From the NCBI RefSeq assembly GCF_004698125.1, contig NZ_ML214297.1, forward strand, positions 1,426,001 through 1,490,000: a stretch of 64,000 nucleotides of DNA. Direction: 5' to 3'. How positions within the stretch are numbered: the stretch's first letter is position 1; the number at the start of each line of letters is the position of its first letter. The position numbers and the translations under genes were made by a program. A model generated the notes under the pieces. That model had not been told where the DNA came from. It saw only the letters and a program-made list of their open reading frames with translations, and searched no databases. The stretch is from Halosimplex halophilum. Lineage in GTDB: Archaea; Halobacteriota; Halobacteria; Halobacteriales; Haloarculaceae. Positions 2,959-62,026 of this stretch are shown here, piece after piece.

Positions 2959-5634
2959 TCACTGGGAGTCGAACATCGCCTCGAGGACGCGGCGGTGGCC
3001 CTTGCGGAGGTGCTGGAGGAAGGTGGTCGATGCGATGTCCAGCGAGTCGGCCAGCGTCTCGGAGTCGGCCTCGCGGGGCCACTCGTAGTAGCCGTTGTAG
3101 TAGGCGGTCTTGAGGACCGCGCGCTGGCGGTCGGTCAGCCGGGCGCCGATGTCGCCGTGGCCCGGCCACCAGGGGGCGTCGGTCCGGTGGCGCTCGCGCT
3201 TGGCGGCCAGCTGCACCTCGGGGAACCGGGCGTCCATCGCCTCGGTGACCTGCCGCACGTCGAGATCCGCCGGCGCCTCGACGAGCATGCGGCCGACGCC
3301 GTCCTCGACGACGCCGCGTTTGCCGCGCGCGCCGGCGTCGGCCAGGTACCGGAAGGCGGAGTCGGTCAGCGTCATCTCGAAGTGGGGGCCGTCCTCGCGG
3401 TCGAGTTCGCGGATCTCCTCGAGGTTGGACAGCTCCCGGGCGGCCGCCGCGCCGACCTCGGGGTCGACGCCCTCGACGGTGAGGTAGTTGACGACGCGGT
3501 CGTCGCCGGTCCGGACGGCGTGGTCGATCTCGAACCGACAGCCGTGTTCGCGGCTGGCCTCGAACAGCGGGAGGTCGCCGTGGACCTCGAACTCCAGTTC
3601 GAGGACGGAGTCCGACTCGACGAGCCGGCGGTACTGGGCGGCCGCGAGCGCGAACCCGACCGCCTCGCCGAGCGTCTCGAAGCCCGCCAGCTCCCGCTTG
3701 CTGAAGGCGTTCGGGCGGGCGGCGTACACCGCCAGCAGGCCGTGGGTCGTCGCCCCGTGGGTCAGCGGCACCGCGACCATCGACCCGAACCCGTTCTCGA
3801 CGGCGGCCGTCCGCCAGGGCTCGAAGACCGGGTCGCTCGCGATGTCGTGGACGACCTGCACCTCGCCGGTGCGGTAGGCCTCGGCGGCCGGGCCGCCGCC
3901 CCGCTCGCCCGCCCCGACCGTGACCGTGATCTCCTCGAGGTAGTCGTCGGCGATCCCGGCACAACACTCCGGCCGCAGCTCCCGCTCGGAGGCCTCGCGC
4001 CCGCCGATCCAGGCGAACTCGTAGTACTCCGACTCGGCCAGCCGCTCGCAGACGGTCTCCTTGACGGCCTCGCTGGTCGTCGCCCCCGTCAGCGCGCGCA
4101 CGCTCTCCTGGACGAGCTCCTGGATCTCCGCCAGCGTCTCCAGCTCGCCGCGCTGGCGCTCCAGCTCGGTGATGTCCCGGGCGATGGTGACGGTCCCCTG
4201 CACCTCGCCGTCGGGGCCGCGGTACGGCGCGATCGTCAGCTGGACGACCAGCTCGCCGTCCCCGCCGGCCAGTTCCTCCTCGACGGTCCGGGCCCGGCCG
4301 GACTCCAGGACCGCCCGCCGGTGGTCCTCCATCCGCTCGGCGACCGGGTCGGCGAACACGTCGCCGGTTGTGGCCCCGACGACCGCGTCGCGGTCCATCC
4401 CCAGGTTCCCGAGCATCGCCCTGTTGACGACCTGGTAGCGCCCCTCGGTGTCCTGCATGGCGATGGGGTCGGGGCTGCTGTCGATGACCGCCCGCAGCTC
4501 CTGTTCGCGCGCCTGGATCTCCTCCTCGCGGCGCTCGCGGTCGGTGATGTCGATGGCGACGGCGATGGCGCCCGTGTCCGACGCGTCGTCGCGGCCCTCG
4601 CCGGTCGTCGCCGACTCCGAGAGGGGTTCGAGACACGCCTTGTAGGTCCGGCCGTCGATCGTCGCCGTCTCGACGGTCGTCTCCCCGTCGAGCGCCCGCC
4701 GGAACCCATCGACCAGGTCCGGGCAGACGGGTTCGAACGCCTCGACCGGTTCGCCGAGGAACTCCTCGCGGTCGCAGACCAGCGCGTCGAAGTCCAGCCC
4801 CTGACAGTGGTCGACCCGCCCGTCCCCGTCGACGACGACCATCATCACCGGCAGGTCCGCCATGATGGTGCCGAGCCGCTCGCGGTTGGCCGCCAGCGCC
4901 TCCCGGCGGCGCTCGCGCTCGGTCACGTCTCGGACGACGTTGACGACCGCCACCACCTCGCCGCCGCGCTCGATCGGCGTCATGCGGTTCTCGACGACGC
5001 CCGTCCCGCCGTCGAGCCGGACCTCCGAGGTGACCGTCCGGCTCTCGGCCCCGCCCGCGAACAGCGCGCGCAGCGCGCGCATCCCCTCGTGGAAGATCTC
5101 GCCGTCGATGATCCCGAGCTCGCGCAGGCAGTCCACGTCCCGGCCCTCGACGCGCTCGGTCGGGACGCCCGTGAACCGGGTGAACCCGTCGCTGGCCGCC
5201 CGGATCGTGTGCGAGCGGTCGACCACGTACACCGCGTCGGCGGCTGCGTCGACGCTGGCCTCGTAGAGCGCCCGCTCGGTCTCGAAGGGGTCGGTCGGCT
5301 CGGCGAACGTCACGACCGCGACCGTGACGCCCCCCTCGCGCTCGACCGGCCGGACGGCGACGGTGACCTCCCGGCCGGTCCCGTCGACGACGCCGTTCCC
5401 GATGGTGCGCTCGCCGGTCTCGACGGCCCGTTCCAGCGGGTCGCTCGGGCAGTCGACGACCTCGCCGACCGACGACTCCCGCGGGTCCGCCTCGACCCGT
5501 TCGGCGAACGGGCCGTTCCAGACGCGGATCGCGCCGTCCGGACCGCAGACGACCGCCGGGTCGTCGACCGCGTCCAGCAACTCGTCGACGAGGGGGTCGT
5601 CCGCCGCCCCGCGACCCTCGACCCGCTCGCTCAC
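2959..5634 (-). CDS. Multi-PAS, GAF, Bat-type HTH sensor-regulator
   Basis: About 891 residues. Reading from the N-terminus there are four PAS-like units: LLDAVDDPAVVCGPDG, then AAADAVYVVDRSHT, LPVMMVVVDGDGRV and SSPDPIAMQDTEGRY. A GAF-like domain follows (about 505-665), then a BAT-type domain, and finally an HTH_10 domain in the last 59 residues beginning LTDRQRAVLKTAYYNGYYEW. No histidine kinase or receiver domain is present, so it is a one-component cytoplasmic sensor and DNA-binding protein of the bacterio-opsin activator class. I chose the GTG at 5634 because a GGAGGGGGG Shine-Dalgarno-like run lies just before it; an upstream GTG at 5649 would overlap that run. Targets are not evident. 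Confidence 0.88.
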   Translation of the reverse strand: MSERVEGRGAADDPLVDELLDAVDDPAVVCGPDGAIRVWNGPFAERVEADPRESSVGEVVDCPSDPLERAVETGERTIGNGVVDGTGREVTVAVRPVEREGGVTVAVVTFAEPTDPFETERALYEASVDAAADAVYVVDRSHTIRAASDGFTRFTGVPTERVEGRDVDCLRELGIIDGEIFHEGMRALRALFAGGAESRTVTSEVRLDGGTGVVENRMTPIERGGEVVAVVNVVRDVTERERRREALAANRERLGTIMADLPVMMVVVDGDGRVDHCQGLDFDALVCDREEFLGEPVEAFEPVCPDLVDGFRRALDGETTVETATIDGRTYKACLEPLSESATTGEGRDDASDTGAIAVAIDITDRERREEEIQAREQELRAVIDSSPDPIAMQDTEGRYQVVNRAMLGNLGMDRDAVVGATTGDVFADPVAERMEDHRRAVLESGRARTVEEELAGGDGELVVQLTIAPYRGPDGEVQGTVTIARDITELERQRGELETLAEIQELVQESVRALTGATTSEAVKETVCERLAESEYYEFAWIGGREASERELRPECCAGIADDYLEEITVTVGAGERGGGPAAEAYRTGEVQVVHDIASDPVFEPWRTAAVENGFGSMVAVPLTHGATTHGLLAVYAARPNAFSKRELAGFETLGEAVGFALAAAQYRRLVESDSVLELEFEVHGDLPLFEASREHGCRFEIDHAVRTGDDRVVNYLTVEGVDPEVGAAAARELSNLEEIRELDREDGPHFEMTLTDSAFRYLADAGARGKRGVVEDGVGRMLVEAPADLDVRQVTEAMDARFPEVQLAAKRERHRTDAPWWPGHGDIGARLTDRQRAVLKTAYYNGYYEWPREADSETLADSLDIASTTFLQHLRKGHRRVLEAMFDSQ

Positions 5635-5745
5635 GGACCCCCCTCCCACACGTGGTACCTACCCATGATGGGCGTACGGTACAGCGCCGAGGCTCATAAC
5701 TTGTGGGCCTGGTTCGCGGGAGCGGTAGGTCGGCTCGCCGCTCCG

Positions 5746-57155: not shown

Positions 57156-57992
57156 TCAGTCGTCGTCGACGGCCGCGGCGCCGCTCGCCGTGTCGGTCCC
57201 GAGGCCGGCGGTCTCGACCACGTCCTGGTTGGCGGCGACCCACCGCAGCAGCAGGAACGCGAAGACGTACTTCGCGCCGATGTCGAGCGCGGAGTAGCCC
57301 CAGGAGGTGAGCCCGACCGACTCGACCAGCGCCAGCCCCTCGACGCCGACCGCCCAGATGACCGGGTAGCCGAGCCACAGCACGACCGTCAGCGCGCGCA
57401 GCGTCCCGAATATCTCGTCGGTGCCCGCCGCCGTCGCCGACCGGGGCCACTCGACGAGGACGGCGTACAGGACCACGACGAAGAAGGCGCAGCTGATGCC
57501 GTAGAACGCCCACCGGAGCCCGTACGAGGAGGTGACCAGCGCGGCGGCCAGCCCGGTGACGCACATCCCGACGTCCGCCGCGACGACCGTGAACAGGCTC
57601 CCGAGGTCCACGTCCGCCAGCAGCCCCAGCGCCAGCAGGATCATCGGCGTCGACAGCGTCCACGTCAGATAGCGACCCCACTGGCTCAGCACCTCCTCGC
57701 CGGCCAGCGCGTGGCCGGGCGGCATCTCGACCAGCCCGACTGTCAGCCCCGAGACCAGCGCCGTGTAGCTCGATATCGAGACCAGCGGGATCAGCAGCGT
57801 CGCCCCCCAGATGAGCTTCGCGCGCGTCCCCTCGACGTTCCGGCCCATGTACACGAAGAGCAGTATCGACAGCCCCGCCAGCGCGATGTTCGCCCACAGC
57901 GACGACGACAGCAGCAGGTCGTTGTTGATCCGCTGGAACACCTCGGCCTGGGAGGCCTGCAGCGCCGGACCCCCCTGGATGGATGGGAACAT
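57156..57992 (-). CDS. hop: Halorhodopsin (light-driven chloride pump)
   Basis: A 278-residue seven-helix retinal protein. Compared with H. salinarum halorhodopsin all key residues fit with an offset of one: Arg107, Thr110 and Ser114 in WGRYLTWTLSTPMILLALG (the bacteriorhodopsin proton acceptor Asp85 is replaced by Thr110), Ala121 at the Asp96 position, Asp237 and the retinal lysine Lys241 in LDIGAKYVFAF. It pumps chloride inward under yellow light. The start is the ATG at 57992. An activator-like site lies about 40 bases upstream. No retinal biosynthesis gene is adjacent. Confidence 0.96.
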   Translation of the reverse strand: MFPSIQGGPALQASQAEVFQRINNDLLLSSSLWANIALAGLSILLFVYMGRNVEGTRAKLIWGATLLIPLVSISSYTALVSGLTVGLVEMPPGHALAGEEVLSQWGRYLTWTLSTPMILLALGLLADVDLGSLFTVVAADVGMCVTGLAAALVTSSYGLRWAFYGISCAFFVVVLYAVLVEWPRSATAAGTDEIFGTLRALTVVLWLGYPVIWAVGVEGLALVESVGLTSWGYSALDIGAKYVFAFLLLRWVAANQDVVETAGLGTDTASGAAAVDDD

Positions 57993-58031
57993 ACGCGTCG
58001 ACGTTGGCCCTCCATGAGGGAGAACACCATG

Positions 58032-58047
58032 CCAAACTATGCAGGGT
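58032..58047 (-). promoter_or_regulatory. Bop-like upstream activator site of hop
   Basis: On the minus strand ACCCTGCATAGTTTGG lies about 40 bases before the hop ATG. It fits the published bop-type UAS consensus (ACC.NACTAG TTNGG) with one extra base and CATAG in place of ACTAG. In H. salinarum Bat acts at this site. Consensus recalled, not searched. Confidence 0.55.
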
Positions 58048-60935: not shown

Positions 60936-61202
60936 ATGCGAAAACGCGAGTCACTCTACCTGCACGCGCTGTTCGCGCTGGTCCGTCGCGAGTTCGAGGA
61001 GGAGCGCGAGCTCCCGGCGGGCACGTTCGACGAGTACGACGGGATGGCGGTCACGCCGACGGCGGTCCACCGCTCGAAGGGCGCACACGAGCGGGCGCTG
61101 TTCGCGCTCTCGACGGAGCTGAGCGCGGCCGCCGCGTCGGCGACAGACGACCCGGACCGCCCGCGGTTCGGCGCCGAGGGATCGAGCCAGTATGCGAGGT
61201 GA
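60936..61202 (+). CDS. UPF0058 family protein
   Basis: An 88-residue protein: MRKRESLYLHALFALVRREF, then VTPTAVHRSKGAHERALFALSTELSAAA. The spacing of the two helices and the Arg/His/Lys pattern match UPF0058, a small family in haloarchaea and a few other archaea. Members are described as metal-binding or nucleic-acid associated but untested. It lies between pantoate kinase and a Bat-like HTH gene, without an obvious promoter. Family assignment is from memory. Confidence 0.82.
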   Translation: MRKRESLYLHALFALVRREFEEERELPAGTFDEYDGMAVTPTAVHRSKGAHERALFALSTELSAAAASATDDPDRPRFGAEGSSQYAR

Positions 61203-61309
61203 CCGACGGCGCCGGGCTTCGACCCCGGCGGCCCCGGCACCCCCGGGGTCCCCGGTCACCCCGAACGACACAAGGTACTTTCCGCCGCACCTGTGGAGTG
61301 GTTGGTAGG

Positions 61310-62026
61310 ATGGCGCCGACAGCCGACCAGCCGACCGAGCTCGAGTTCCGGGTGACCAGCGCCGAGTACCCGTTCGTCAGCGGGTCGGAGCGCGGTTCCT
61401 GTCGGTGGGTCCTCCGGGAGCTGTTGCCCCGCTCGGACGGCGAGTACCTGGAGTTTTTCGAGGTGCGCGACGCCTCGCCCGCGACCGTCGAGCGGATCGC
61501 CGAGACCGAGCCCGTCGAGGAGCGGCTGGTCGACCGCTACACCGACAACGGGGTCGTGGTCTGTCACGTCGAGGAACCCCGCGAGTGCGTCGCGACGACG
61601 CTGGCCGACGAGGCGGCGTTCCTCCGCGACCTCTGGGCCGAGGACGGGGACGGCCGCGTCGTCGCCGAGGTCCTCCCTTCGCGCGACGCCGGAACCGTCG
61701 TCGACGCCCTGCTGGAGCAACACCCGGCGGTCGAACTGGTCGCCAAGCGCGACCGTCCACAGGACGGACCGCTCTTTCTCCGGCACAAGGTCCAGGACGT
61801 GCTCGCCAGAGAGCTCACCGACCGCCAGCTGGAGGTGCTGGTGACCGCCTACCGGGTCGGCTACTTCGAGCGGCCCCGCGAGACGACCGGCGCCGAGGTC
61901 GCCGCGGAGCTGGACATCTCGCCGTCGACGTTCTCCCAGCACCTCCGGGCCGCCCAGCGCAAGCTCCTCGGCGCCCTCTTCGAGGAGTGCGGTCCGGCCA
62001 CCGGCCACCGGATCGACGTGGAGTAG
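61310..62026 (+). CDS. Bat-type HTH regulator
   Basis: A 238-residue protein. The first 170 residues (YPFVSGSERGSCRWVLRELL onwards) form a BAT-like sensing domain as in many haloarchaeal HTH_10 proteins. The last 60, beginning LTDRQLEVLVTAYRVGYFERP and containing VAAELDISPSTFSQHLRAAQRKLL, are the HTH_10 (bacterio-opsin activator) DNA-binding domain. The start is ATG at 61310. It sits between the two CoA-pathway genes on the same strand; a regulatory link is possible but unproven. It shares this HTH type with the protein at 2959-5634. Confidence 0.9.
   Translation: MAPTADQPTELEFRVTSAEYPFVSGSERGSCRWVLRELLPRSDGEYLEFFEVRDASPATVERIAETEPVEERLVDRYTDNGVVVCHVEEPRECVATTLADEAAFLRDLWAEDGDGRVVAEVLPSRDAGTVVDALLEQHPAVELVAKRDRPQDGPLFLRHKVQDVLARELTDRQLEVLVTAYRVGYFERPRETTGAEVAAELDISPSTFSQHLRAAQRKLLGALFEECGPATGHRIDVE

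Follow-up and report, generated by a model that had tools for sequence, protein, structure and literature searches.

A bop-type activator site before the halorhodopsin gene of Halosimplex points to membership in the Bat regulon

Bat and its target site form a classic archaeal regulon, familiar from the genes of the proton pump and its pigment. In Halobacterium salinarum, this Bat/upstream activator site (UAS) regulon comprises bop, brp, bat and crtB1, and the accessible text of the two reports concerned does not name the halorhodopsin gene, hop, among its members (PMC1502140, PMC1447603). A search of the open-access literature likewise found no source, within the portions of text available, that places hop under Bat. 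Linkage of hop to biogenesis genes has been described by Sharma et al. for Natronomonas pharaonis only, where it was taken as convergence; according to the available part of that report, there is none around other hR genes (PMC1885257). Concerning the regulator itself, the accessible sections of two further papers describe the H. salinarum Bat as already known to lack the adduct cysteine (PMC4844311) and the Bat of Halorubrum hochstenium as carrying proline in its place, and direct light sensing by Bat is called not definitively established (PMC4682037).

Here, we compare these systems with the hop locus of Halosimplex halophilum, which lies in a window of 64,000 nucleotides (the whole stretch of DNA analysed), and with the corresponding loci of its relatives. 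We hold it probable, at roughly 70%, that hop belongs to the Bat regulon, in which a Bat-type activator would drive hop, bop and the retinal pathway jointly in light and at low oxygen.

The halorhodopsin gene and its upstream site

The hop gene occupies positions 57156..57992 on the minus strand, stop codon included, with its ATG at 57992, and encodes a protein of 278 residues. This start is backed by an alignment of six Halosimplex promoters, in which the ATG column is kept. The product matches PF01036 with 152.7 bits, and the nearest solved structures are the halorhodopsin entries 5ahy, 1e12 and 2jaf (E ~1e-113), which we take to be those of H. salinarum, while the top bacteriorhodopsin structure follows at 8e-29. 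Residues R107, T110, S114, D237 and K241 are invariant across an alignment of seven halorhodopsins; the arginine, threonine and serine presumably belong to helix C, and the aspartate and lysine to helix G. Both its nearest relatives and the Arg/Thr/Ser and Asp/Lys set mark the protein as a halorhodopsin, and it is predicted to be a light-driven chloride pump, in line with the preliminary description, which had reported a halorhodopsin gene here and listed the same chloride-pump residues. The genome of this strain (4.47 Mb) holds three opsin matches, namely hop, bop and an SRII-type gene adjoining a transducer gene, the last assignment being made by eye.

Upstream of hop, the bop-type site ACCCTGCATAGTTTGG is present as an exact match at 58032..58047 on the minus strand and is also recovered by motif matrices and by alignment. 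Its 14-mer core as defined by the matrices, CCTGCATAGTTTGG, covers 58032-58045 (minus), and a spacer of 39 bases (57993..58031, minus) separates it from the start codon, close to the distance of about 40 bases given before. This spacing is typical, as hop promoters show a median of 39 bases with an interquartile range of 38-43 (60 distinct promoters). The sole other match in the window has three mismatches, at a chance expectation of 0.07 for up to three. With a matrix derived from hop promoters outside this genus (hop matrix), the site ranks 1 among 127974 window positions and its score of 13.4 exceeds all 269 control promoters, whose maximum is 8.5. A second matrix, likewise derived outside this genus but from bop promoters and without any hop promoter (bop matrix), places it at rank 24 among the same 127974 positions; here it obtains 4.5 bits compared to a 99th control percentile of 4.16, with 3 of the 269 controls scoring higher. 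That percentile, which delimits the top 1% of the controls, served as our threshold; 72 hop starts had been removed from the control set by motif, and the control starts are machine-called and may be off. The site before bop of the same strain reaches 15.4 bits with the bop matrix, and the low value of the hop site is due to its altered left half.

Conservation within the genus sets the site apart from its surroundings. Six Halosimplex hop promoters are readable, a seventh genome ending at a contig end and an eighth having no hop match, and their alignment contains CCC.GCATAGTT.GG as the longest invariant block between diverged flanks. The 16-mers of the window strain and of H. carlsbadense agree in every letter despite flank divergence, and the altered left half (CC.GCA) is common to all six sites. 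All six promoters exceed the 99th control percentile with the bop matrix, and none of the 269 controls reaches any Halosimplex hop score with the hop matrix. Within Halosimplex, the site accompanies hop in 6/6 readable promoters, one crtB paralogue in 7/7 readable promoters, and bop in 7/7 of the genomes where bop was matched. The conservation of the hop site shows that it is hardly a chance resemblance.

One element before chloride-pump, proton-pump and pigment genes

The bop gene of the window strain carries CCAACTAGTTTGG 43 bases before its ATG, and CCAACTAGTT.GG stands before bop in each of the seven Halosimplex genomes where this gene was matched. Separate motif discovery in hop promoters (70 dereplicated) and bop promoters (48) of the family returned the same 14-mer near-palindrome, CC..ACTAGTT.GG, with log-likelihood gains of 181 for hop (70 clusters) and 243 for bop (48), compared to 38-47 for shuffled sequences; six samples of 70 genuine control promoters each gave 95-115. 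The last base of the motif falls most often at -40/-39 from the ATG in hop and at -43 in bop. Moreover, AT-rich positions downstream of the site coincide between hop (n=60) and bop (n=59) promoters and are strongest at +11/+12 and +27/+28. The two versions differ in their half-sites: in hop, the TATA-side half is conserved with 6.8 bits versus 3.9 for the other half, whereas both halves are equal in bop (7.3 and 7.4 bits). The hop version of the site would therefore be the weaker one.

Among the 99 family hop genes, 90 promoters were taken and 89 were usable (that of G095 ends at a contig end); 70 bop promoters were examined from 103 bop matches. Outside Halosimplex, 50 of 83 family hop promoters lie above the threshold with the bop matrix and 33 below it. 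For further genera, 49 of 80 named hop loci were examined and 45 scored as outside the family, a membership judged by genus name, so that Haloglomus, counted with these 45, could be a family member; 23 of the 45 pass with the bop matrix (15/20 from Halorubrum and 8/25 from others) and 22 do not. Full palindromes such as CCCAACTAGTTGGG occur among the Halorubrum hop promoters, and 3/25 hop promoters of the other further genera top the hop-matrix control maximum. Thus, hop has in common with bop a UAS-type element at a fixed upstream distance, the window copy being weak against the bop matrix (4.5 bits). The resemblance to a bop-type, Bat-responsive site noted in the preliminary description is borne out by the agreement with bop in motif, position and promoter geometry, by the conservation in Halosimplex and by a linkage of Bat and hop in two other genera (see below).

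To relate the element to the described regulon, we scanned a 9-kb segment of the bat region of H. salinarum (L421) with the matrices, whose training had included no Halobacterium sequence. One marked place lies 40 bases before the bop start, which we located by what we take to be its first residues, another 82 bases before a crtB1-like gene named by eye, and a third beside the neighbour of bat; a lower-scoring place (10.2 bits) is contained in the brp promoter. The near-palindrome is therefore very probably the Bat UAS. Halosimplex and H. salinarum agree in the near-palindrome close upstream of bop, in a crtB-type gene with the element and in a bat gene near bop. They differ in that Halosimplex hop carries the element, whereas H. 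salinarum hop matches weakly (-2.4 and 5.7 bits), in the altered left half of the window hop site, and in that Halosimplex bat has no convincing site.

Further predicted targets are found in the genome of the window strain. On another contig than hop, Bat, bop, a lycopene cyclase gene (crtY) and blh form a cluster (C2:276108-281002), in which the site-bearing bop promoter heads bop-crtY-blh. One of two crtB (phytoene synthase family) paralogues has CCCAACCAGTTTGG 119 bases before its start; a like site precedes this paralogue in 7/7 readable Halosimplex genomes, 111-124 bases upstream rather than at about 40, the eighth promoter (L280) ending at a contig end. For the second crtB paralogue, five of 8 promoters were examined; their bop-matrix scores do not exceed 1.6 bits, while two of the five reach 8.9 at -77 with the hop matrix. 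We found no convincing, conserved site before bat in seven Halosimplex genomes, the best scores being 6.2 bits (bop matrix, -115) and 7.5 (hop matrix, -137), each in one genome, and none before a second blh paralogue situated 17-18 kb from hop in the two Halosimplex genomes examined (C1:1502069-1502884 in the window strain and C1:1089582-1090397 in G091). A search for the site before bop, brp, crtB1 and bat had been proposed in the preliminary description, which held that a lack of further sites near retinal or opsin genes, together with a lack of light or oxygen response, would refute its idea. The part of this search that was run did not refute it: bop and one of the two crtB genes have sites, while bat and the second blh have no convincing one.

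A gene for an uncharacterised protein of 181 residues (L343, C2:106065-106607, plus strand; Halosimplex relatives L344-L349 and L351), for which neither Pfam nor NCBIfam gives a match at E 0.01, is likely a further regulon member, as the invariant CCTAACTGGTTTGG lies 36-38 bases before its start in 8/8 Halosimplex genomes. Of 23 relatives examined in other genera, two (L372, L374) have a site of more than 11 bits with both matrices, at differing places. The SRII-transducer region of the window strain shows no site in the usual place; the best-scoring site of this region (11.0 bits with the hop matrix) is found 124 bases upstream of the probable start of the transducer gene and seems to fall within the frame before it. 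As separate observations, CCAATATAGTTTGG is located at C1:1156965-1156978 (minus; L187), 43 bases upstream of what by eye resembles a zinc alcohol dehydrogenase gene, and is followed by ATTTAA at +13 to +18; the accessible text on H. salinarum places alcohol dehydrogenases in the bop bicluster (PMC1502140). The Halosimplex genome G089 has neither bop nor hop at our cut-offs and retains bat, blh, the site-bearing crtB and the site-bearing 181-residue gene.

Bat and other candidate regulators

A full Bat protein is encoded in the genome of the window strain, 219 bases before bop and on another contig than hop, and consists of receiver, PAS (LOV-like), GAF, BAT and HTH_10 domains. This receiver, LOV, GAF and HTH layout resembles that of the archaeal LOV-HTH proteins and BAT-LOV* as far as the available text describes them (PMC4844311, PMC4682037). 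Blue-light LOV families are the second and third best NCBIfam matches of its PAS region, both below their cut-offs. The protein has the LOV adduct cysteine (GRNCNFMQG, in which Asn replaces Arg and Met replaces Leu) and retains 8 of 10 residues listed in PMC4682037 by our own mapping. The cysteine is present in 29/29 Bat homologues of the family examined, as it is in the Bat of 8 Halosimplex genomes; L323, the twin of L322, was left out of this reading. Among the 16 best Bat matches in other named genomes, which are not proven orthologues of the bop-linked Bat, 11 have the cysteine, 4 do not and one has no such segment; the residue is histidine in both Halobacterium proteins and in Halobaculum and proline in one Halorubrum. 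The Bat of H. salinarum has histidine at the adduct position and that of Halorubrum hochstenium has proline, as given in the accessible text (PMC4682037), whereas the Bat of the window strain keeps the cysteine and may be able to detect blue light.

In a minority of genomes, Bat lies close to hop itself. With a cut-off of E at most 1e-90, 15 of the 99 genomes with hop encode a Bat homologue no more than 8 kb away from it; these 15 come from two genera (g13, g15). In 8 of the 15, Bat follows 101-528 bases downstream of hop on the same strand; elsewhere, one cluster holds hop and bat together with crtY-like and blh-like genes, as identified by eye. The distances were calculated from 40 of 103 bop rows, which include 32 Bat-bop pairs within 8 kb, and from 75 of 78 Bat rows; the three left out (G040, the second G136 piece and the second G023 row) are not near hop by coordinates. 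Thirteen of the 15 hop-linked Bats, like those of the eight Halosimplex genomes and unlike the Bat of H. salinarum and of Halorubrum hochstenium, have the adduct cysteine (G110 and G105 do not). Four linked genomes with a completeness of 94-99% (G115, G120, G121 and G134) yielded no bop at E 1e-70, although they may have a more divergent one. As in the N. pharaonis halorhodopsin region, hop is linked to biogenesis genes, and the further genomes add bat, crtY-like and blh-like genes; unlike in that account, whose available part reports no control site before hop, such a site is present here (PMC1885257). In G040 and G041 (C1:291779-293539), bop and hop are adjacent on one strand.

The window itself contains two HTH_10 proteins, as the preliminary description had stated: one with BAT and HTH_10 domains by Pfam at 61199-62023 (plus strand), and one in an open frame at 2962-5658 (minus strand), recovered with a profile built from Bat C-termini. 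Their suggested role as regulators of hop is not supported; a full Bat is encoded 219 bases before bop, and this bop-linked Bat is the likely regulator instead. The strongest competing account accepts the shared site as real and has the hop version bound by another HTH_10 activator, either a Bat paralogue or a window protein. The left half that differs from bop and is kept in 6/6 Halosimplex hop sites would fit this, as would the large number of Bat-like proteins, with 61-136 candidates at first look in each Halosimplex genome queried with Bat, and the position of one window HTH_10 gene 3 kb from hop. However, Pfam finds no sensor domain in the protein at 61199, and the hop-linked activators, where found, are full-length Bat homologues, and we regard this account as unlikely.

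Joint control of two light-driven pumps

According to our preferred reading, a Bat-type activator, most likely the bop-linked receiver-LOV-GAF-BAT-HTH_10 protein, would bind CC..ACTAGTT.GG just upstream of the TATA position. Bound Bat would recruit the basal machinery, so that in light and at low oxygen the cell would produce both pumps, for chloride and for protons, along with the retinal pathway, to which one crtB and the crtY and blh genes that follow bop contribute. That Bat is the binder, that binding leads to activation, and what the signal is, we infer from the sequences compared here.

The promoter of the window strain calls for caution. At the TATA position, +8 to +14 after the site (58018..58024, minus; from the Halosimplex promoter alignment), it reads TTCTCCC, so that the AT-rich stretch present in the 5/5 sister promoters examined (TACAATA in three, TACTACA in two) is absent. 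An AT-rich stretch at this place is an accessory feature of the geometry that hop and bop have in common and does not define it. As both this position and the left half-site are degenerate, hop expression may be weak in this strain. Taken further, hop could have lost Bat control here together with its TATA box and be silent or constitutive, with the site a leftover. Such a loss appears improbable, and slightly more so than a different activator, as the 16-mer shared with H. carlsbadense has stayed unchanged between diverged flanks and the TATA box of H. salinarum bop deviates from the consensus as well, according to the accessible text (PMC1447603). Finally, a generic haloarchaeal promoter element or a chance resemblance is very improbable: although whole-genome pattern counts alone do not single out the hop site, two loose patterns being no commoner than their reversed controls (262 vs 283 and 3 vs 10), the palindromic pattern is commoner than its control (23 vs 5, most places inside called frames), the motif is not equally frequent at that place in the control promoters, and position and geometry are fixed as in bop.

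With the same control site before hop and before the proton-pump and pigment genes, it is therefore probable that a single sensor protein turns on both pumps jointly, and hop is a probable new member of the known Bat regulon. A wider proposal, which we put forward tentatively and with somewhat less than even confidence, is that Bat in Halosimplex and related genera may be a true blue-light photoreceptor that acts through its LOV cysteine and directly switches a regulon of retinal, proton-pump and chloride-pump genes via one palindromic site; a LOV-Bat might then be dedicated to halorhodopsin in some lineages without a detected bop, and the cysteine-less, redox-sensing Bat of H. salinarum would be one variant. 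If hop shares the site, chloride and proton pumping would be set together, and the cysteine-bearing Bat beside bop and hop would offer a natural system, with defined target promoters, for asking whether Bat senses light directly.
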